Source: a virus. From it: a stretch of 40,592 bases of DNA. Every line of letters starts with the position of its first letter. Within the stretch, counting starts at the first letter, position 1. Under the pieces are notes generated by a model, which ran no database searches, was not told the DNA's origin, and saw only the letters and a program-made list of their open reading frames with translations. Position numbers and translations under genes: made by a program. Location of the stretch: the IMG/VR virus record IMGVR_UViG_3300043395_002772, positions 1 to 40,592 of that record; one strand, given 5' to 3'. Positions 11,909 through 40,486 of this stretch are shown piece by piece.

Positions 11909-11938
11909 AGTATAGCACGAAAGAGATTGTGGTGTCAA
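11909..11938 (-). promoter_or_regulatory. Minus-strand promoter of the HNH/membrane island
   Basis: On the minus strand TTGACA (11938-11933), an 18-bp spacer and TATACT (11914-11909) preceded by TGC form a strong promoter with an extended -10. It would transcribe the membrane protein, HNH nuclease and two small genes. The spacer lacks the GGTATTTG word of the plus-strand promoters, so it is probably under other control. Confidence 0.75.
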
Positions 11939-11939
11939 T

Positions 11940-12056
11940 CCCCATATTTACTGGGGAATTTGATTCTATCGTCTGACGTGCAGACAGATTCTATACTTAT
12001 CCACATTTCACCGTTTTCGAGAGTCTGATGATATAAAAATCCCAATATAATACCTC
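11940..12056. other. Divergent operator-like region
   Basis: This gap lies between two divergent promoters. It holds the inverted repeat GTCTG/CAGAC (11971-11985), two copies of GATTCTAT (near 11962 and 11987), and CCCC/GGGG arms near 11940-11956. Such a layout is typical of a binding site for a switch-like regulator. No gene is present. Confidence 0.4.
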
Positions 12057-12085
12057 TTGACATGGGTATTTGCAAGGTGTAGAAT
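12057..12085 (+). promoter_or_regulatory. Early promoter P2 (sigma-70-like)
   Basis: TTGACA (12057-12062), a 17-bp spacer and TAGAAT (12080-12085) make a strong promoter. GGTATTTG and GGTGTA lie in the spacer, and AGGTCAG follows the -10 in register with P1. It would drive the structured leader and the HTH, SSB and nuclease genes downstream. Confidence 0.85.
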
Positions 12086-12091
12086 GATGGT

Positions 12092-12195
12092 GAGGTCAGC
12101 TTTCAAGGAGGGAGTTTGAACTGCACACCAAACGAACGACCGCGTTGCGGCCACGCCGATAGGCACCCGTGCGTTCTCACTCCCTCCTGATTTTA
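12092..12195 (+). ncRNA. Structured leader or small RNA after P2
   Basis: AGGAGGGAGT (12106-12115) pairs perfectly with ACTCCCTCCT (12179-12188), closing a ~63-base interior that holds CCGC/GCGG and GCC/GGC hairpins. GATTTTACT follows the closing stem, so it may end transcription. The 5' arm hides a ribosome-site-like AGGAGG. It could be an attenuator for the operon or a ~100-base small RNA. Confidence 0.5.
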
Positions 12196-14093: not shown

Positions 14094-14266
14094 TATTCAA
14101 CGACCTCACGGACGATGCGGAGGACTACGTCCGTGAGGAACTCCAATCTACTATTATGAGTGCCGACTTCTGCCAGCTCCACGCATGGGCGCGGGGTTGG
14201 CGGAAGGGGCTGACGATCGAAGACGCGCTTCGGTTTACTAGTACGTTTACCATGAAGAAGCTATGA
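14090..14266 (+). CDS. 58-aa small protein, unknown
   Basis: The product starts MIFNDLTDDAEDYVREELQ and continues CQLHAWARGWRKGLTIEDAL, a compact helical protein. It has ATGA overlaps at both ends, which firmly places it in the operon directly before the RecB/Cas4-like nuclease. It might be a small partner or regulator; no family is recognised. Confidence 0.7.
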   Translation: MIFNDLTDDAEDYVREELQSTIMSADFCQLHAWARGWRKGLTIEDALRFTSTFTMKKL

Positions 14267-15036
14267 AATATTCCTTCGATAAGGCCCAACACGTTCATAC
14301 ACTCGACGGAAGACCACTCACCGGCGTATCTACCGTAGGTTCTGTGGTAGGGAAGGGGGGTCTGACGTGGTGGGCAGTGGGATTAGCCCTAAAAAAACTT
14401 GGCTGGACAAATCCGAAGTTTACCGACAAGCAGACACGGCTAGAAAAGGCCGGCGAAGCATTCGACGTTATTAGAAATCTCCCACATCTTGAGTACCTCT
14501 CTCTGCTCGACGACTGCTACAAAGCCCATGACGTTGAGAAGAAAGAATCGGCGAAGCGGGGGACGGCAAGACACAAGCTTGTTGAGGAGTATGTGAAGTC
14601 GTGTATCAACGGGGACGAACAGGACGCGCCAGAGGAAATTCAATCGTTCGTCAAGTGGGCGAAGGAAAATGTCAAGAAGTTTCTTTGGTCTGAGGCACAT
14701 AGTTTTAGTGAGAAACATTGGGTAGGAGGAATTTCTGACATAGGCGCAGAGTTGAAGGATGGGAACATCGCGGTCATTGACATCAAGAGCTCAAAAACTG
14801 CCTACCCAGAAATGTTTTTCCAGTGTGGTGGGTACGACCTGCTGATTTCGGAGAACGGCTTGTGGACTGCTGATGGAGAGAAAATCGCCGATCCAATAAC
14901 CATTACCAGACATATCATCTTCCCATTTGGTGCTGAGAATCCTACTGCGGTGATCCGTGAAGATGTCGGGAAGAATCGGGAGGCGTTTCTCCACGAGCTT
15001 GCGCTGTATCTGCAGATTCAGAACTACAAACAATAA
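14263..15036 (+). CDS. PD-(D/E)XK nuclease, RecB/Cas4-like
   Basis: This 257-aa protein has the order of motifs of RecB-type exonucleases: RGTARHKLVEEY (H104), GGISDIGAEL (D159), then AVIDIKSSK (D173, K175) and a downstream FQCGGYDLL helix with the conserved Gln. It would degrade or process DNA ends in recombination or replication, with a divalent metal. It lacks the four cysteines of Cas4, so it is not an iron-sulfur form. It is the last coding gene before a large non-coding stretch. Confidence 0.85.
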   Translation: MKYSFDKAQHVHTLDGRPLTGVSTVGSVVGKGGLTWWAVGLALKKLGWTNPKFTDKQTRLEKAGEAFDVIRNLPHLEYLSLLDDCYKAHDVEKKESAKRGTARHKLVEEYVKSCINGDEQDAPEEIQSFVKWAKENVKKFLWSEAHSFSEKHWVGGISDIGAELKDGNIAVIDIKSSKTAYPEMFFQCGGYDLLISENGLWTADGEKIADPITITRHIIFPFGAENPTAVIREDVGKNREAFLHELALYLQIQNYKQ

Positions 15037-15057
15037 CCCCACCAACAAACGTAACGA

Positions 15058-15400
15058 ATGGGGTCGGGTAGTGGGCAGCGGGACTCGGCTATGGGGGAAC
15101 CAACGGCAAACGTAGCCGACGGGCAGACGGAGCCAGAACCCCCGAACGTGGCCGAGTCTCGGTGCTCAGTACAGGAAGTGGGCTGAGAGCCAGTGTCCAT
15201 CGTCGCTAGGGAACGAAAGAAGCGAGTGAGAGCGAAGTGGTCAGATCGTTCCCCGCTGGCTCCTAGTCCATTTCCCTCTTGGAGACTATCGCACGTTGAA
15301 AAATGGAGACTATCGAGCAGGACGTGTCAGCGGCGCGTCAGTGCCTATCGCTTCGGTGATGGTTGGCCGTCCTGCTCAATAGCCTTCAGGGAATCCCAAC
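15058..15400 (+). ncRNA. Candidate large structured RNA
   Basis: This stretch between two genes has at least three stable domains. Domain 1 is nested: GACTCGGC/GCCGAGTC (15082-15158) encloses GGGGG/CCCCC (15093-15143), which encloses CGGC/GCCG (15104-15118). Domain 2 has AGCCAG/CTGGCT (15188-15261) around GGGAACGA/TCGTTCCC (15209-15253). Domain 3 has a perfect 10-bp stem GAGCAGGACG/CGTCCTGCTC (15315-15377) enclosing a UUCG-tetraloop hairpin (15347-15360). GGAGACTATCG is repeated at 15281 and 15305. No open frame fits. It matches no RNA class recognisable by eye. Confidence 0.6.
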
Positions 15401-15429
15401 CCCATAAACAACGTCTATTCGTAACCACC

Positions 15430-15645
15430 ATGAAGCAAACACGCAAACGAGCGAGGGAGAACAGAATAACGCTTGCGACAATGATTGGGGTTAACGATTG
15501 GGCTGAAGCGGCATGGAAACATGGATGGATACGCAAGAGTGGTTGGAGTGGGCCTGATGAGGTTGCTGCCTCAATCCAGTCGTACATCAGATTAACAAAG
15601 CTCCCCGTCCGCCTCCTCCCCATAAGTAAGAAGCGACGAAAATGA
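15430..15645 (+). CDS. 71-aa basic protein, unknown
   Basis: The ATG at 15430 (MKQTRKRARENRITLATMIG) is preferred over one 79 codons up, because the upstream stretch is structured RNA and reads as noise. The product is strongly basic with two short helices and ends SKKRRK. It probably binds nucleic acid. It is coupled by ATGA to the next gene. Confidence 0.6.
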   Translation: MKQTRKRARENRITLATMIGVNDWAEAAWKHGWIRKSGWSGPDEVAASIQSYIRLTKLPVRLLPISKKRRK

Positions 15646-15857: not shown

Positions 15858-16171
15858 ACTCCACCCCACAACCAGAGACGATGGAGGAGAACAGGCAGTG
15901 GCTATCAACTTGTCATAATGCACCGGCGCACAGGTGTTGCTATAACCATCCGTATTTCTGCGATGTGTGTCATCAGATGTGCAACACATACGCTAAAGGT
16001 GCCCCAAGTGATTGCCTCCAACAACTTCTCTCCCTCATTGAGCGGGTGGAGAAGCGACTACACGACGAATACGATAAGCAACGCAACTGGCAGGAAGACG
16101 CTGAATCGCCTTCGGTCATAATTGATGGCATCCTCTCCTCCGAGAAAGACCGGATAGGGGGGAAGGGATGA
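15854..16171 (+). CDS. Cys/His-rich protein with shared terminal cassettes
   Basis: This 105-aa protein begins MNSTPQPETMEENRQW and ends SSEKDRIGGKG. Its middle has a metal-site-like cluster (HRCCYNHPYFCDVCHQMC). The start and end are shared at DNA level with the gene at 18613 while the middle is unrelated: 22 and 19 identical bases respectively. Both boundaries look like sites of past recombination. Function is unknown; zinc binding is likely. Confidence 0.7.
   Translation: MNSTPQPETMEENRQWLSTCHNAPAHRCCYNHPYFCDVCHQMCNTYAKGAPSDCLQQLLSLIERVEKRLHDEYDKQRNWQEDAESPSVIIDGILSSEKDRIGGKG
15867..15888 (+). repeat. 22-bp gene-start repeat, copy 1
   Basis: These 22 bases, near the 5' end of this gene, are identical to 18629-18650 near the start of another small gene. 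They include GATGGAGGA, so they carry an internal ATG and a ribosome-site-like GGAGG. Confidence 0.9.
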
Positions 16172-17870: not shown

Positions 17871-17890
17871 GTAACTAAACCAACTCCCAT

Positions 17891-17910
17891 CATCGACAAG
17901 ATTCTATGAA
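17891..17910 (+). repeat. 20-bp gene-start repeat, copy 1
   Basis: These 20 bases ending in the ATG context of the alanine-repeat gene recur at 18391-18410 with one mismatch, exactly 500 bases on. The two copies bracket the gene, like a footprint of duplication or insertion. Confidence 0.85.
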
Positions 17911-18385
17911 GAATCTTACCCTAGCACAACTCAAAGAGTGGAAACCCTGTAACGATCAGGATTGGGTTGGTCGTCTTCAGAGAGAATACGGAAAAAGTGT
18001 TGAGTGGGATGTGGTGGTCAATGTTCTTACAAACGAGAAAAAATACTCCGACCTGGGTTGGCTTGTCGGTAAGCGGCTAGAAAGACTGACAAAGCGCCAA
18101 GTCTGTGCATTCTCCTATCGCTGCTCACACCGTTCCCTAAAGTACGCCCGAAAACAAGATTTTGAAGTTTTGAAAAAGGCTGTTGGGTTTGCAAAAGAGT
18201 ATGCTGATACTGGAAGGATTGATAGGGCTGCTGCGTTGGCTGCGAGTGATGCTGCGAGTGATGCTGCGAGTGATGCTGCGTGGGCTGCTGCGAGGGCTGC
18301 GTGGGCTGCGAGTTATGCTGCGGAATATAAATGGCAATTTACCCAACTCCTCGACATCGAAGAAAACTGGAAAGGAAAAGCCTAA
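17906..18385 (+). CDS. Alanine-repeat protein, copy 2
   Basis: This 159-aa paralogue of the gene at 12563 shares the N-terminal domain (MKNLTLAQLKEWKPCNDQDW, LTKRQVCAF, HRSLKYARK) and the FTQLL-type C terminus. The repeat part is DAAS and AAWA/AARA units (about residues 109-140), encoded as GCTGCG blocks rather than the GCG/TCG blocks of copy 1. The conserved domain and separately evolved repeats suggest that the repeat is functional as an alanine-rich helix. It is bracketed by 20-bp direct repeats. Role unknown. Confidence 0.8.
   Translation: MKNLTLAQLKEWKPCNDQDWVGRLQREYGKSVEWDVVVNVLTNEKKYSDLGWLVGKRLERLTKRQVCAFSYRCSHRSLKYARKQDFEVLKKAVGFAKEYADTGRIDRAAALAASDAASDAASDAAWAAARAAWAASYAAEYKWQFTQLLDIEENWKGKA
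18229..18322 (+). repeat. In-frame tandem repeat (Asp/Trp/Arg-Ala-Ala-Ser)
   Basis: Three perfect 12-base GCTGCGAGTGAT units are followed by variants with TGG, AGG and TAT in the variable position. The reading frame is kept throughout. It lies in the second alanine-repeat gene. Confidence 0.88.
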
Positions 18386-18390
18386 CCCCT

Positions 18391-18410
18391 CATCAACAAG
18401 ATTCTATGAA
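18391..18410 (+). repeat. 20-bp gene-start repeat, copy 2
   Basis: This copy matches 17891-17910 in 19 of 20 bases. Its ATG (18406) opens only a 5-codon frame, so it looks like a displaced gene start. Confidence 0.8.
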
Positions 18411-18662: not shown

Positions 18663-18879
18663 ATGCTTGTTAGACCATGCTTCGGACGCTGCACACAATC
18701 TCCTGCTGGAATATGGGCGCGACGTGAAGAAGCACGATGTACGGTTGCGATTGATGTTGAATTATCGAACAAGAGTATTGCCGGAGTATGAACGAGAACA
18801 CATCGTCGATAAGGTGTGGCGAGAAATAAAGAAAGCCCTCTTCTCCTCCGAGAAAGACCGTATTGAGAGGAAGGGATGA
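18613..18879 (+). CDS. 88-aa protein with shared terminal cassettes
   Basis: The product begins MTTPTTQPETMEEMS and ends SSEKDRIERKG. Both ends match the gene at 15854 at DNA level, but the middle (helical, with RLRLMLNYRTRVLPEYERE) is unrelated. An internal ATG at 18643 follows the cassette and could be the real start, as it would avoid most of the overlap. Function unknown. Confidence 0.55.
   Translation: MTTPTTQPETMEEMSVECLLDHASDAAHNLLLEYGRDVKKHDVRLRLMLNYRTRVLPEYEREHIVDKVWREIKKALFSSEKDRIERKG
18629..18650 (+). repeat. 22-bp gene-start repeat, copy 2
   Basis: These 22 bases are identical to 15867-15888. The matching gene ends also share a 19-base word (18842-18860 and 16134-16152). Confidence 0.9.
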
Positions 18880-26848: not shown

Positions 26849-27889
26849 TTATTTACGGAGGAGACTCCCGCCTGGCCTATTGAGCGGAGAGTTTGGGGCA
26901 CGGTCTATCACTCTTTTCTTTGGCTGACCGATCCTGAAGTTGTCTGGATAAGCAGCAAAAACATCTTTCGTAATGTCCGAGATATTCTTATGGGGGTATT
27001 CCTGTGCGAGTCTCCTGATAATATCCTCTCTTGTGTATTCTCCGTCTCCCTTATCCCCACCAGTAACAACGACATCCGACGCTCCTTGGAGCGAGGCGTT
27101 ATAGTCTTGATCGAGAAGGAATTTCTGTTCCGTCACACTTATCTCTCCACCGCCACTCTCACGTCCGCGATTCGCGATCAGTGACTGTGTATTTGCAAGG
27201 TCAAGCATTTCCGCAGGAGAGGCGGTAAAGAAGTCCTTGCCAATCTTGATAATAGTCTTTCCTGCCTTTTTCGCTTTCGCAACCTCTTTCGGTGTACTGA
27301 GATAGGTTCTTCCTTTTGCCTGTTGCTCGGTGCGAGTCGAAATAGTGTCCGCACGCTCCGTGTCTATTGCCTCTTGTTTCTTGGTCGCCGCGGCTTTAAT
27401 CGGTGCGAGGATGCTTTGGAGGAGGTCGAACTTCTTTTGCTTCTCCGTTACGTCAAGTCCAGAGAGTTTGCTTTGTATGTCCTGTTGTGCTTGTTGCTCC
27501 TCAACATCAAGCCCAGAGAGCGCGTTACGCTGTGCCTCTGACGTGCTTCTGAGCGAAGTAAGGTACGGGGCGAGGTTCTGTGCACCGACCGCCTGGCCGA
27601 TGCCTGAGACCTCTCCTGAGGCGTTGTAGAGCTCTCTCCCGCCATACTGCGCCCGTGTTTGAATACCAGCATTCGCCAGATTCTGGTTGATGGTATCGAG
27701 TTGGTCTTGGTAGGAGCGAATGGTTTGCGCCCTCCGTTGCGCGTAGGTCTGAGGAAGTGAAGACAGTTGACCCTGAAGACCAGTCCGTTGCTGCCCAATA
27801 TCTTCTGTAATCAAAGACTCCGCCTGCGTGTAGGTCGGGTCGCGCTGTGCTTGGATGATTTGATCTTCTGTATAGAGTGGTTCTGCCAT
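26849..27889 (-). CDS. Coiled-coil internal virion protein
   Basis: This 346-aa protein is Gln/Ala-rich and mostly helical (residues 30-190, with SYQDQLDTINQNLANAG and EEQQAQQDIQSKLSGLD). A C-terminal GGGE linker and a REDIIRRLAQEYP domain follow. It lies 10 bases upstream of the large internal protein, like paired ejection proteins of other podoviruses. The role is inferred from context and composition. Confidence 0.65.
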   Translation of the reverse strand: MAEPLYTEDQIIQAQRDPTYTQAESLITEDIGQQRTGLQGQLSSLPQTYAQRRAQTIRSYQDQLDTINQNLANAGIQTRAQYGGRELYNASGEVSGIGQAVGAQNLAPYLTSLRSTSEAQRNALSGLDVEEQQAQQDIQSKLSGLDVTEKQKKFDLLQSILAPIKAAATKKQEAIDTERADTISTRTEQQAKGRTYLSTPKEVAKAKKAGKTIIKIGKDFFTASPAEMLDLANTQSLIANRGRESGGGEISVTEQKFLLDQDYNASLQGASDVVVTGGDKGDGEYTREDIIRRLAQEYPHKNISDITKDVFAAYPDNFRIGQPKKRVIDRAPNSPLNRPGGSLLRK

Positions 27890-27906
27890 TGGTGTTTAAT
27901 TATTTC

Positions 27907-27966
27907 CCCCAAAGATGGACACACGAGAGCGCGGAGGAAACGCCCTCATGTGGCCGTCTTTTGGGG
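27907..27966. other. Long imperfect hairpin in late mRNA
   Basis: A 60-base inverted repeat fills much of the 99-base gap between two late genes. CCCCAAAGATGG pairs with CCGTCTTTTGGGG with one bulge, and inside it ACACGAGAGCG-like and CGCCCTCATGTG-like arms pair around a 9-base loop. Two mismatches on the plus strand become G-U pairs on the minus strand, so the late mRNA folds better. ATTTTTATT follows on the plus strand. Confidence 0.65.
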
Positions 27967-27988
27967 ATTTTTATTGTGGTTTGTCCTT

Positions 27989-35161: not shown

Positions 35162-35676
35162 GGTTTGTCGTTAAGGCGTGTGATTTCACGCTGGATTTCT
35201 TCCTCGCGTCTTCGGTGTTTCTTTTGGAGCTTGAGAAGTCGTATGCCGTGTGTGAGAAGTTCGAGTGTCCTATATGGATCAAGATTATGGTGAAGGCCGA
35301 GGTTGCTTTTTAGCTCCTCAAGAATGGATGCGTAACTCTCCCTGGTATCTGCCCACTTCCGCTCCGTAATAATATCTAGGATGTATCCGTCAACCTCTCG
35401 GATCGTCCTGTCGAGTTGCCACTGGTCAATAGCTCCAAGGGGAATATCTAAAACCGTCGTCAGATATGGTCTGTCGGTATTCTGAAGCCCCGATGGGCCG
35501 ATGTCTGGTTTTTCTCCTCCATGCACAAACTTCTTCGGTTGTGGAGGAGTTGTGTCTTGTTCAGCCGCCTTTCTTGAAGCCAGCTCCGATATACGGACTG
35601 ATGGCCTCACGCCACCGCTCTCCACCCCTTGGGAAGGAGAAGTCACTGAGGACTCGCTGCTTTGCTGCTCTTCCAT
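35158..35676 (-). CDS. 172-aa protein with disordered N terminus
   Basis: The ATG at 35676 has AAGG just upstream and gives a Ser/Glu/Gln/Pro-rich start (MEEQQSSESSVTSPSQ), then a helical C terminus (LELLTHGIRLLKLQKKHRRR). It overlaps the glycosyltransferase end by 116 bases, which is large; a GTG at 35526 would avoid this and give 122 aa. It lies between glycosyltransferases and tail genes. Unknown role, possibly tail or modification-linked. Confidence 0.5.
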   Translation of the reverse strand: MEEQQSSESSVTSPSQGVESGGVRPSVRISELASRKAAEQDTTPPQPKKFVHGGEKPDIGPSGLQNTDRPYLTTVLDIPLGAIDQWQLDRTIREVDGYILDIITERKWADTRESYASILEELKSNLGLHHNLDPYRTLELLTHGIRLLKLQKKHRRREEEIQREITRLNDKP

Positions 35677-36688
35677 AATCCTTTCGTAGTTGTTCGTTTT
35701 CAATAAGCGCAGAGAGTGCGTCAACCCAGTCGTCCTCGGTCGTGCAAAGGAGCGCGTCTTCTGGCCCAAGTCTTGTATATGGGCCAAATCTCGATGCCAC
35801 AGTCGGTATCTCAAGCATTGAATATTCGTACCACTTCGTCAGAGATCGACCATTATTGAACTGTGATTCAATGAGTGGGGCTATACCAATGTCGTATCCC
35901 TGTCTTGCGAGTTCGCTTGGGTATGTTCTTGGGTCTTCTGGGTTCCCGTTCCACCATCCAATACCGGGATAGGTGCACCAATTCTTATCAGAAATTCCCT
36001 CTGCAAAAACCCATTCTGGTTTCATGTGCCCCATAAAGGAGAACACCACGAATGGATACTTCTTAATAATCCGTCGCATGACCGGGAAGATAAGACTATG
36101 ATCGACGGTATGTGATGCGGACGCTGCCCACCCAATAACTAGTCTAGCGTCCGGTCGTCTTGCACGAACAATCCCATGCCAATCCCTCGGATCGTTGTAG
36201 TTCTGTAAGACGATGATGTTTTTGTTGTATGGCTCGTAAATATCAACAAGATGCTTTGTGGCGACAGTGATTGCCGTCGCCTCTTGCATCATCACATCGA
36301 GGTGATAGCGTTCTTCCGAGCCAGGCTCGAATGACATCTTCTCCGCAGACTTCCCATCTGTCGTAAGTACATTGTCATCAAAATCGACGAAGACTGGCTT
36401 ATTATAGAAATCACACGCGGCAAGTACGGAAAGGATGAGCCAAGGATTTTGTAGGTTCTTGGTAAAGACCAAGTCGTGATCCTCGACTAATTCAATAATT
36501 TTTTCTTTTGTTTTCTCTAAGCCAAGCTCCAAGAAGCTGTGACCCGCGTGAGTGTGTTGAAATCCGGTAAGATACCGTGACGGTGCAACCTGTCTGTAGT
36601 GGCCGACGCCGCCAGGAAGACCCCATTTTTGTGCCTCCGCAGATGAGAACTGTACATTGAGCCAAAGGATTTTCGGTGTTTTAGGCAC
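35561..36688 (-). CDS. GT-B glycosyltransferase, paralogue 1
   Basis: The GTG at 36688, with AAAGGA before it, gives 375 aa; a 55-codon upstream extension overlaps the previous gene and is rejected. The protein has GT4-like features. It has VFVDFDDNVL, then VIGWAASASHTVD, the acceptor/donor-domain link. GYDIGIAPLIESQFNNG and KWYEYSMLEIPTVASRFGPY then form the donor-binding site with the conserved Glu. It would use an NDP-sugar. It is a diverged tandem copy of the next gene. Confidence 0.8.
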   Translation of the reverse strand: MPKTPKILWLNVQFSSAEAQKWGLPGGVGHYRQVAPSRYLTGFQHTHAGHSFLELGLEKTKEKIIELVEDHDLVFTKNLQNPWLILSVLAACDFYNKPVFVDFDDNVLTTDGKSAEKMSFEPGSEERYHLDVMMQEATAITVATKHLVDIYEPYNKNIIVLQNYNDPRDWHGIVRARRPDARLVIGWAASASHTVDHSLIFPVMRRIIKKYPFVVFSFMGHMKPEWVFAEGISDKNWCTYPGIGWWNGNPEDPRTYPSELARQGYDIGIAPLIESQFNNGRSLTKWYEYSMLEIPTVASRFGPYTRLGPEDALLCTTEDDWVDALSALIENEQLRKDYGRAAKQRVLSDFSFPRGGERWREAISPYIGAGFKKGG

Positions 36689-37823
36689 GTTCGAATCCTT
36701 TCCCGATATATTGGTCAAAGACCCTCCCCCACAGCTCCCCATGGTCTTTCCATTGGCGGTTCTGTACAACCTCGTTGTATGCAGCGGTGCCGATTTGTTC
36801 CCTGAGCGTTGCGCTCTCGATGAGTCTGGAAATCCACTCAACCCATTCATCAACTGTGTCGCAGAGGATACCGTCTATTCCGTGTTTGATGTTCCTGGCG
36901 TATGGGCCAAAGTTTGTCGCAACAGTTGGAATCTTATACGACGCATACTCCATCCACTTACCCTCAGCCTTGCCATCGTTGAATGGGCTGCGCTTGAGTG
37001 GCGCAAGGCCAATATCGAACCCCCATTTCGCAACCGACGGAAAGTAGTCCAGTATGCTTTGTGTACCTGAATGCACCTCGTATGCCTCCTTGGGCATTCC
37101 CTCAAAAATCTGCCTCAGAATACTTGGTGGCATCCCCCCACAAAAGAGAAAGATGATCTTTGTATTATATTTATTCCAGATTCTCCGATAGACCTCTACG
37201 ACTTCTAAGAAATCGGAAAAGTGCGTCTGAGAACCCATCCAGCCGATGGCGATTCTCCCGTCCTTGCGTTTTGATTTTTTGTACTGCCAATCGTTAATAT
37301 CGTGGAGGTTCGGCAGAACATGAATGTTTGAACAATATGGCTTGTAGACCTCTGCAAGCGGTTCTGTGGAGACGGTCATTGCCGTTACCGAACGGAAGAG
37401 TTCCTCATGTACCGTCTGCTCTAACTTGTCCCTCTTATAGAACTCAGCGTCGGGGTGTAGTTCATCGACCGCGAAGTAATCATCGTCCATGTCGAGAATG
37501 AGTGGTTTCTTGTAGTACGCGCACGGGGCGACAAACTGCAAAATACCCGCTGGAGAAGAAATGTTCTTCATCCAGACAATATCTGACTTTGATATGAGGT
37601 AGGGGATAGCCTCCTGCGGTGGAACGTTGACGAGGTTCTCATCTACCACGTCCGGCAATCTCCCGAAGTGCACCGCGTCAAATCTCTCTGGGAGATATTG
37701 TAGTGGCTTGACAATTCGGTAATACCCAACGCCGCAGTAGAGGTCGAGCTTGTCGTTTCCTTTTCCTCCCCAGTCGTTACGCCACGCCAGGATCCTTGGC
37801 TTGGATTTCTTTGACTGCTCCAT
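36681..37823 (-). CDS. GT-B glycosyltransferase, paralogue 2
   Basis: This 380-aa protein shares with paralogue 1 an LDMDDDYFAVD segment, an AIGWMGSQTHFSD glycine-rich loop, and GFDIGLAPLKRSPFNDGKAE followed by KWMEYASYKIPTVATNFGPY. These fit the GT4 family. No membrane segment is present, so it acts in the cytoplasm. Its substrate is unknown. Its start overlaps the previous gene by 47 bases. The position between chaperonin and tail genes suggests virion protein glycosylation. Confidence 0.82.
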   Translation of the reverse strand: MEQSKKSKPRILAWRNDWGGKGNDKLDLYCGVGYYRIVKPLQYLPERFDAVHFGRLPDVVDENLVNVPPQEAIPYLISKSDIVWMKNISSPAGILQFVAPCAYYKKPLILDMDDDYFAVDELHPDAEFYKRDKLEQTVHEELFRSVTAMTVSTEPLAEVYKPYCSNIHVLPNLHDINDWQYKKSKRKDGRIAIGWMGSQTHFSDFLEVVEVYRRIWNKYNTKIIFLFCGGMPPSILRQIFEGMPKEAYEVHSGTQSILDYFPSVAKWGFDIGLAPLKRSPFNDGKAEGKWMEYASYKIPTVATNFGPYARNIKHGIDGILCDTVDEWVEWISRLIESATLREQIGTAAYNEVVQNRQWKDHGELWGRVFDQYIGKGFERA

Positions 37824-38727: not shown

Positions 38728-39056
38728 AGTCGCAAGAATTGTGTTTGTGCTCTACCGTGGATAATGCGCTTACCAAAGAGAAGACGAAGAAAATCGTCCC
38801 TCCCCCTTGTTGGGTAGGAGGTGATCTTTCTCAGCCACATTCCTCTTTCTTTATTCCAGGTATTTTCTACCTTAGTGTTTTTTGTTTTCTTTTCGACGTA
38901 GGATGACGAGAGCGTGAATCCGCAGTATTGGTAGCCCCTGTAGAGGGCAACGGGCTTTAGGTTCTTTCCGTTTGGGAGAAAGACGACCCTACCAGAAACC
39001 AACCGAAGTCGTGGGTCGAGTTTCATGAGCCTGGCTTGTAATTGGTGCCTCGTCAT
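38718..39056 (-). CDS. 112-aa basic protein, unknown
   Basis: The product is Arg/Lys-rich with short strands (LRLVSGRVVFLPNGKNLKPV) and a Trp/Tyr-rich middle. Its ATG overlaps the groEL stop by ATGA, so it is made with the chaperonin. It is followed by the glycosyltransferases. It could be a chaperonin partner or a virion part; no family is recognised. Confidence 0.65.
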   Translation of the reverse strand: MTRHQLQARLMKLDPRLRLVSGRVVFLPNGKNLKPVALYRGYQYCGFTLSSSYVEKKTKNTKVENTWNKERGMWLRKITSYPTRGRDDFLRLLFGKRIIHGRAQTQFLRLWQ

Positions 39057-40486
39057 AGTGCGACGCTTTCTGATAAGAGAATAAGCGATGCGACTGAGAT
39101 AGCGTTTTGAAGTGCCGTATGGGTGACCTTGAAAGGGTCGATGATTCCTTCAACTGGGAGTTTCTCGCCAGCGTTATCATCAAGCGTCTTTCTTGGTTCC
39201 TGAAGCGCCTTCTTGAGTATTTTTGATTCTATGAGCTCTGCGGCGTTTTCAAGTGCTACTCCTCCACCTGGTATCACGCCGTCCTCTAGTGTTGCTATTC
39301 CTGCTCGTATACCGTCATCAACACGGAACTTTTTTTCAGTAATTTCTGTTTCCGTCCTTCCCCCAACTTCGACGACACCGACGAGTCCAGAGATTCTTGA
39401 AAGTCTTTGCTCAAGAACCATTTTCTCAACAGGGTCAGTGGCCGACTGTAAGGCTCCAAAGAGTTCCGCCTTGCGTATTTCTCTGTCCCCAGCACCACCA
39501 ATGATCGTTGTCAGAGTTTGTGATGCTGAAACACTCTCCGCGTGCCCCAGGTCTCCGATAGTTGCCGTACGGAGGTTATCTCCCCCCTCGTGCCAAAATG
39601 GCTTTGCCCCGGTAACCGCCGCTATGTCCTGAATAATCTCTCTTTGGCGTTCTGGGGTACCCACTGGACGCACTACCATAACCTTCAGTACGCCGTTTTT
39701 TCGATTCAACTCGATGTTTTTGATCGCTGAGCCGAATACATCATCTGCTATGATAAGAAGATTCCTCTTCCCAGATTCTGCGACCTCTTCCATGAGCCCG
39801 AAAATCTCGTCGATGAGCTCAATTTTCTTGTTTGTGACGAGGATAAGCACGTCCTCGGCGTCACAGTTTCCAGTCTTGGTGTTGGTAATCATCGACGGGG
39901 ACATATATCCACCATCGAACTGGAATCCAGCAGCAACTTCTGACGTTATCCCCATTCCATGACCTGTCTGTACTGCTATTTTAGCATCTTTCCCGAGCTT
40001 CCACAAGATGTCGGATACTAATGTGCCAATCGTTTCATCCCTCGACGCAAGCGAGATAATCCTTCGTAATTCTTCTTTTTTCCCGACTGGCCTCGCTATC
40101 GTCCGTAGGTAATCCACAACCTTCGTCCCGTCCCTTGCGAGCTCGTCCCGAATGTCCACGGGATTCCTCCCAGATTCTACCTCTTCCATCCCAATGGTAA
40201 GAATCTTGTCAGCAAGGAGTGTCGCTGTAGTCGTTCCGTCCCCAGCAACCTCGTTGGTTTTTGCTGCAACCTCACGAATAAGGTCTGCACCGACAGATTC
40301 GACCTTATCCTCAAACTTCAAGTGCTGCGCGATGGTGACGCCATCGTTGGTAATCGCCGGTGGGTGGCCCTCTTGTGCGAGAATCGCGTACCTCCCGCGT
40401 GGCCCAAGAGTCGGAATAACTGCACGAGCGAGTTTATGGACACCTGCGATGAGCTTTTCTCTTGCCTCTTTTCCGTAGTACACCAT
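39053..40486 (-). CDS. groEL: GroEL-like chaperonin (Cpn60), shortened
   Basis: This 477-aa protein (E. coli GroEL has 548) keeps the ATPase signatures. They are LGPRG (27-31), TNDG (D48), GDGTTT (D83), the VDD motif (D391, matching the general base D398) and PGGG near 407. The apical domain has LMEEVAESGKRNLLIIADDV. After the PGGG loop about 35 residues of the equatorial domain are missing, including the GYNA nucleotide-contact segment, though GIIDPFKV is kept. The Gly-Met tail is absent. It would fold phage proteins in ATP-driven cycles with the phage GroES. The missing segments suggest altered ATP handling or ring assembly. Confidence 0.93.
   Translation of the reverse strand: MVYYGKEAREKLIAGVHKLARAVIPTLGPRGRYAILAQEGHPPAITNDGVTIAQHLKFEDKVESVGADLIREVAAKTNEVAGDGTTTATLLADKILTIGMEEVESGRNPVDIRDELARDGTKVVDYLRTIARPVGKKEELRRIISLASRDETIGTLVSDILWKLGKDAKIAVQTGHGMGITSEVAAGFQFDGGYMSPSMITNTKTGNCDAEDVLILVTNKKIELIDEIFGLMEEVAESGKRNLLIIADDVFGSAIKNIELNRKNGVLKVMVVRPVGTPERQREIIQDIAAVTGAKPFWHEGGDNLRTATIGDLGHAESVSASQTLTTIIGGAGDREIRKAELFGALQSATDPVEKMVLEQRLSRISGLVGVVEVGGRTETEITEKKFRVDDGIRAGIATLEDGVIPGGGVALENAAELIESKILKKALQEPRKTLDDNAGEKLPVEGIIDPFKVTHTALQNAISVASLILLSESVAL

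Follow-up and report, generated by a model that had tools for sequence, protein, structure and literature searches.

In an uncultured phage, the interval between the gene for a RecB-like exonuclease and that for a small basic protein does not look coding and is predicted to fold into three hairpin arms of great stability, with a bias to the RNA of the + strand. Its structure goes beyond chance, and it is absent from the known RNA families. As a tentative first choice among several readings, each short of an even chance, we infer that it is a co-transcribed intercistronic RNA which would be cleaved and would serve to process or insulate the messages on its two sides.

Results

The gap and its neighbours

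The DNA analysed here (the window) is the IMG/VR record IMGVR_UViG_3300043395_002772, 40,592 bases long and classed as linear. It encodes terminase, a major head protein, GroEL, and tail and baseplate-like proteins, together with an HNH endonuclease and a DNA polymerase exonuclease subunit. The structured gap lies within a cluster of small rightward genes:

14263-15036, + strand: upstream gene, phage exonuclease, RecB/PD-(D/E)XK-like (PHROG 298, E 3.5e-17)
15037-15429, + strand: whole intergenic structured gap, 393 bases, from the TAA of the exonuclease gene to the ATG at 15430
15430-15645, + strand: downstream gene, 71-aa basic protein (pI 11.5; 17 K/R vs 5 D/E)

The exonuclease also matches Pfam PDDEXK_1 at E 0.029, under the cut-off of that family. 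The basic protein, which begins MKQTRKRARENR, has no family match in PHROGs, Pfam, PADLOC, phages or PDB, and a structure model of low confidence gives it two helices. A longer open reading frame (15193-15645) consists of the basic-protein gene and an upstream extension with a codon score of -0.249. A preliminary description of this DNA had placed a structured RNA without a gene at 15058-15400, and the gap indeed does not look coding: by a codon-usage score trained on 18 genes of the window, its six frames range from -0.25 to -0.50 bits per codon, compared with +0.09 to +0.34 in the reference genes themselves. The 31-codon open reading frame at 15091-15186, in the first arm, has a weakly positive score (+0.10) and is not taken as a gene.

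Elsewhere in the window, a GroEL-type chaperonin gene (39053-40486, - strand; PHROG 5725, E 2e-103) has at most 38% identity to the chaperonins of the phage collection. Two neighbouring glycosyltransferase-like genes (35561-36853 and 36681-37823, - strand) each match the other's homologues in kin, and are likely to be a tandem duplication. An obvious Shine-Dalgarno sequence is absent, on reading by eye, at most of the listed start codons of the record. Short repeats occur just 5' of start codons, at 17880-17910 and 18385-18410, and again at 16140-16170 and 18845-18876 (CATCGACAAGATTCTATGAA and CATCAACAAGATTCTATGAA are examples), which hints at a duplication of gene cassettes or at a common initiation signal.

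Strength of the fold

The + strand RNA of all 393 nt of the gap folds at -180.5 kcal/mol, with a z of -6.25 against dinucleotide shuffles; the - strand RNA gives -2.85. With DNA parameters, the + strand has a z of -3.5 (0 of 100 shuffles as good) and the - strand one of -1.5. Since the folds are weaker as DNA and on the - strand, the signal belongs to the + strand RNA.

The 360 nt at 15048-15407 fold at -177.0 kcal/mol, against -132.0 ± 5.8 kcal/mol in 200 shuffles, the best of which reached -150. With a pooled standard deviation this corresponds to a z of -9.0, and among 226 windows of 360 nt the runner-up has -4.6; these comparison windows lay on a grid over both strands and the boundaries of the element were picked after its fold was known, so that the element is fairly called an outlier and the value of -9.0 is not unbiased. 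The predicted fold holds 126 base pairs, 19 of them G-U, with a mean pair probability of 0.91. The structured RNA proposed for this interval is thus confirmed, with a fold z well apart from the values found elsewhere in the record. As no homologue was found, selection on the structure is argued from thermodynamics.

Anatomy of the arms

The fold is divided as follows:

15058-15067, + strand: 5' strand of a possible closing helix, AUGGGGU-C-GG (MFE pair probability 0.86-0.98)
15068-15172, + strand: arm A (z -7.61; inverted repeat I1)
15174-15275, + strand: arm B (z -5.21; inverted repeat I3)
15276-15303, + strand: linker containing the upstream copy (15280-15291) of a 12-nt direct repeat, TGGAGACTATCG, from a repeat search
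15304-15388, + strand: arm C (z -6.75; best 100-nt window of the record)
15396-15405, + strand: 3' strand of the possible closing helix, CC-A-ACCCCAU (duplex test)

Folded singly, each arm outdoes its shuffles (0 of 200 as good in every case), which upholds the earlier claim of three separate domains, and the 100-nt window over arm C ranks first among 2,700 from both strands of the whole record. The stem of arm A has 3, 6 and 14 bp with single mismatches between them, then a 4-nt bulge, a GGGGG/CCCCC helix and an irregular inner hairpin. Arm B is built of 12 and 9 bp around one mismatch, a 13-nt bulge, an 8-bp stem (GGGAACGA/UCGUUCCC) and a purine-rich loop of 29 nt. In arm C, a stem of 5, 4 and 10 bp with single mismatches and a bulged U leads to a three-way junction in which every base is paired; C(UUCG)G (15351-15356) caps one of its branches. 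The 10-bp stem and the UUCG tetraloop that had been noticed at the outset are therefore both present, the stem being GAGCAGGACG/CGTCCTGCTC at 15315-15324/15368-15377. The two copies of TGGAGACTATCG, at 15280-15291 and, in arm C, at 15304-15315, compete for one 3' strand at the foot of that arm; the fold prediction gives the two pairings probabilities of about 0.67 and 0.30.

The closing helix is at chance level (shuffling p 0.14; 21% of genomic flank pairs equal it), and hence the three arms are not established as one compact domain. A pseudoknot between the loop of arm A and the bulge of arm B was likewise at chance level (p 0.21-0.23). A common origin of arms A and B was considered and set aside, as the 10-mer that they share is expected by chance on our own estimate. 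The ATG region of the basic-protein gene is predicted to pair with the downstream coding sequence rather than with the arms.

Comparison with known RNA classes

The preliminary description had recognised no RNA class in the stretch, and a search of Rfam 15 (4227 families, GOLLD and ROOL included) agrees, with no match at gathering thresholds across the whole 40.6-kb window. At E<=5 it returned just mir-1307 and mir-512, with 18 bits each against cut-offs of 69 and 94, which is chance level. A group I intron was prompted by a GACUA repeat and rejected, the P7-like partners being in the wrong order by eye and Rfam silent. No reverse transcriptase of the kind that goes with retron RNAs was found by PHROGs, Pfam or PADLOC in the adjacent and other early-region proteins tested, a set that leaves out some small open reading frames. 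RNase III sites between cistrons present about two turns of near-continuous double-stranded RNA; the near-continuous stems of the gap, broken by single mismatches, have 23 pairs in arm A, 21 in arm B and 19 in arm C. ARAGORN finds no tRNA or tmRNA in the 40.6 kb, so that the tRNA neighbourhood of GOLLD- and ROOL-type RNAs, a trait described as occurring often and not strictly defining (PMC12286853), is lacking in the window.

Position in the early operon

A consensus scan of the rightward early operon gave a single strong promoter match upstream of the gap, about 3 kb away on the same strand:

12057-12085, + strand: putative sigma-70-like promoter, consensus match TTGACA-17-TAGAAT

The scan as a whole returned 10 promoter-like sites, vs 10.9 expected from shuffled sequence. 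A divergent sigma-70-like match stands at 11938-11909, each of the two having 11/12, and the region 11909-12085 could be a candidate early control region. A 16-nt inverted repeat, AGGAGGGAG.../...CTCCCTCCT, was seen at 12106-12188 in the leader of the rightward operon, about 20 nt past the early promoter match.

Beside the gap the consensus scan detects no sigma-70-like promoter, and in or around it no intrinsic terminator (a GC-rich stem followed by a U run). The RNA would therefore sit inside the message of the early operon, although a phage-specific promoter of its own is conceivable. The proposal that the gap holds a large structured RNA is thus supported in part: the candidate stands, and stands beyond the known classes; an independent RNA gene does not follow from its surroundings.

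Search for relatives

DNA homologues of the gap were not found in phages or plasmids at BLAST sensitivity, nor exact 20-base matches in viral contigs, nor copies in the records of kin. A 19/21 match in locus L073 falls within apparent coding sequence and was attributed to chance. Single-sequence covariance models of arms A and C had the window itself as their sole confident match in 1.49 Mb, and two scans of prokaryote genomes by way of the neighbour genes returned nothing.

Scans with capsid and terminase identified kin records (G048, G049, G058, G059, G060 and G061), with TerL 60-71% identical and the structural genes in the same order as here, where the records cover it. G048 and G060 were covered essentially as whole records, and G058, G059 and G061 as stored loci. 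Among these kin no credible exonuclease was found; a match in G058 (E 9e-4) lies inside a stretch encoding tail-region homologues and was taken as spurious. Since the kin records are short or end within the early region, the absence of exonuclease and RNA from them is weak evidence. Other structured stretches of the kin were weighed as counterparts and judged to be different things. Scans with the exonuclease turned up a homologue solely in a distant record (G001), 35-40% identical and cut short by the end of its contig. Were the two ends of that contig to join, the next gene would be another one, methylase-like by eye, with no such gap in between.

Long hairpins of similar make occur elsewhere in this record and in kin:

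27905-27967, - strand: hairpin of 25 pairs interrupted by three single mismatches, in the gap separating two late genes; the ATG at 27889 follows after 15 nt
L171 9250-9362, - strand: hairpin of the kin record G048 with an uninterrupted 25-bp stem (z -7.72), between two leftward open reading frames by eye
L173 19830-19925, - strand: long near-perfect hairpin of the distant kin record G051 (z -6.28), which overlaps short open reading frames in a putative gap

The 131-nt stretch that encloses the first has a z of -4.70. The two hairpins of the kin were chosen from a scan that looked for low z, and are not homologous in sequence to the gap RNA. Lying in gaps or putative gaps, all three fit a role in intercistronic processing, and they count among the reasons for putting the processing or insulating reading first.

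Discussion

The reading that we put first is that of an RNA which would work between two cistrons. The early operon message, starting near 12085, would include the gap RNA, which would fold while being transcribed. A double-strand-specific nuclease, for example the RNase III of the host, could then cut the arms at their roughly 19-23 near-continuous base pairs, and the cut would part the message for the exonuclease from those for the small downstream genes. The stable hairpins that remain would block exonucleases, so that the two halves may be expressed at different levels, and the excised RNA may itself persist and act alone. Against this reading, one hairpin is all that a simple processing site needs; with its three arms and its perfect three-way junction, the gap RNA is more elaborate than that. 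In our ranking it is followed by a trans-acting RNA and then by a cis-acting regulator, with a function of the DNA and chance placed last.

A serious rival, which we regard as possible and as the less probable of the two, is a discrete RNA of about 350 nt belonging to an undescribed class of trans-acting phage RNAs, transcribed from a phage-type promoter of its own or released from the operon message by cleavage; during infection it would serve the cell or the phage as a scaffold, a decoy or a regulator. The extent of the structure, its dense and confidently predicted pairing, the junction with its C(UUCG)G cap and the want of an Rfam class all favour such an RNA, and ornate phage RNAs with no known function, GOLLD and ROOL, already exist (PMC12286853). 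It is opposed by the failure to find a sigma-70-like promoter or terminator, by a closing helix within the range of chance and by its absence from kin phages, most of whose records are partial. Structured phage RNA is a known kind; the gap RNA matches no Rfam family, and no second copy of it was found. More specifically, it is doubtful, though worth stating, that it represents a new class of ornate phage RNA, about 350 nt long, early and intra-operon, with an arm foot switchable by a repeat and possibly a basic protein as dedicated partner. If real and self-acting, the gap RNA would add an undescribed class to the few large phage RNAs known.

The gap runs up to the start codon of a protein that is strongly basic, and the 12-nt direct repeat in the gap lets the foot of arm C pair in two alternative ways; both features would suit a cis-acting regulator of that protein or of the operon. 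The protein might bind the RNA for autocontrol, or the RNA, with or without the protein, might alter RNA polymerase, as the antitermination sites HK022 put and lambda boxB/N do. Those sites share with the gap RNA a structured RNA in an early phage operon and an adjoining small basic protein; they are far smaller and near the promoter, whereas the gap lies 3 kb downstream of the sole strong promoter match. The 71-aa protein may bear some likeness to the arginine-rich motif of lambda N. Its failure to match a family, its two-helix model of low confidence and the predicted pairing of the ATG region away from the arms all speak against cis control, which we consider unlikely.

That the element acts as DNA next to the exonuclease gene, as an origin, a single-strand initiation site or a recombination site with arms extruding as single-stranded DNA, agrees with the inverted repeats and with the + strand DNA fold; the poor fold of the - strand DNA and the far stronger + strand RNA signal, with its G-U pairs, make this very unlikely. 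Least probable of all, and already disfavoured by the shuffles of each arm and by the first rank in the record at both 100 nt and 360 nt, is an accidental fold (in sequence that is richer in GC, was joined wrongly in assembly or derives from a decayed gene), for which the missing homologues in the collections searched and the weakly positive reading frame in arm A might be cited.

If the gap RNA is a processing element, as we prefer, it would be an unusually elaborate means of message separation, in an uncultured phage lineage with long intercistronic hairpins in its kin. It would then offer a concrete, testable case of how expression levels are set within one early operon.

Several studies describe RNAs with which it can be compared. 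GOLLD and ROOL are large, highly paired, phage- or prophage-encoded RNAs, often located by tRNA genes and supported by covariation, and many GOLLD RNAs exceed 800 nt (PMC12286853). The gap RNA resembles them in being large, highly paired and phage-encoded, and differs in its smaller size, in having no tRNA gene in the window and in matching no Rfam model. DicF, from the dicBF operon of the Qin prophage, yields fragments of 53 and 190 nt that act by base pairing (PMC10448788), whereas the gap RNA is known here from sequence. The closest parallels to the processing reading are the R1.1 hairpin of T7 and the rpsO-pnp site, cut by RNase III, the latter between coding sequences (PMC8708148). Like these, the gap RNA is intercistronic and belongs to the coding strand of an operon, and small internal mismatches interrupt its long hairpins; in place of their single hairpins, it presents three predicted arms of 85-105 nt, one of them with a three-way junction.
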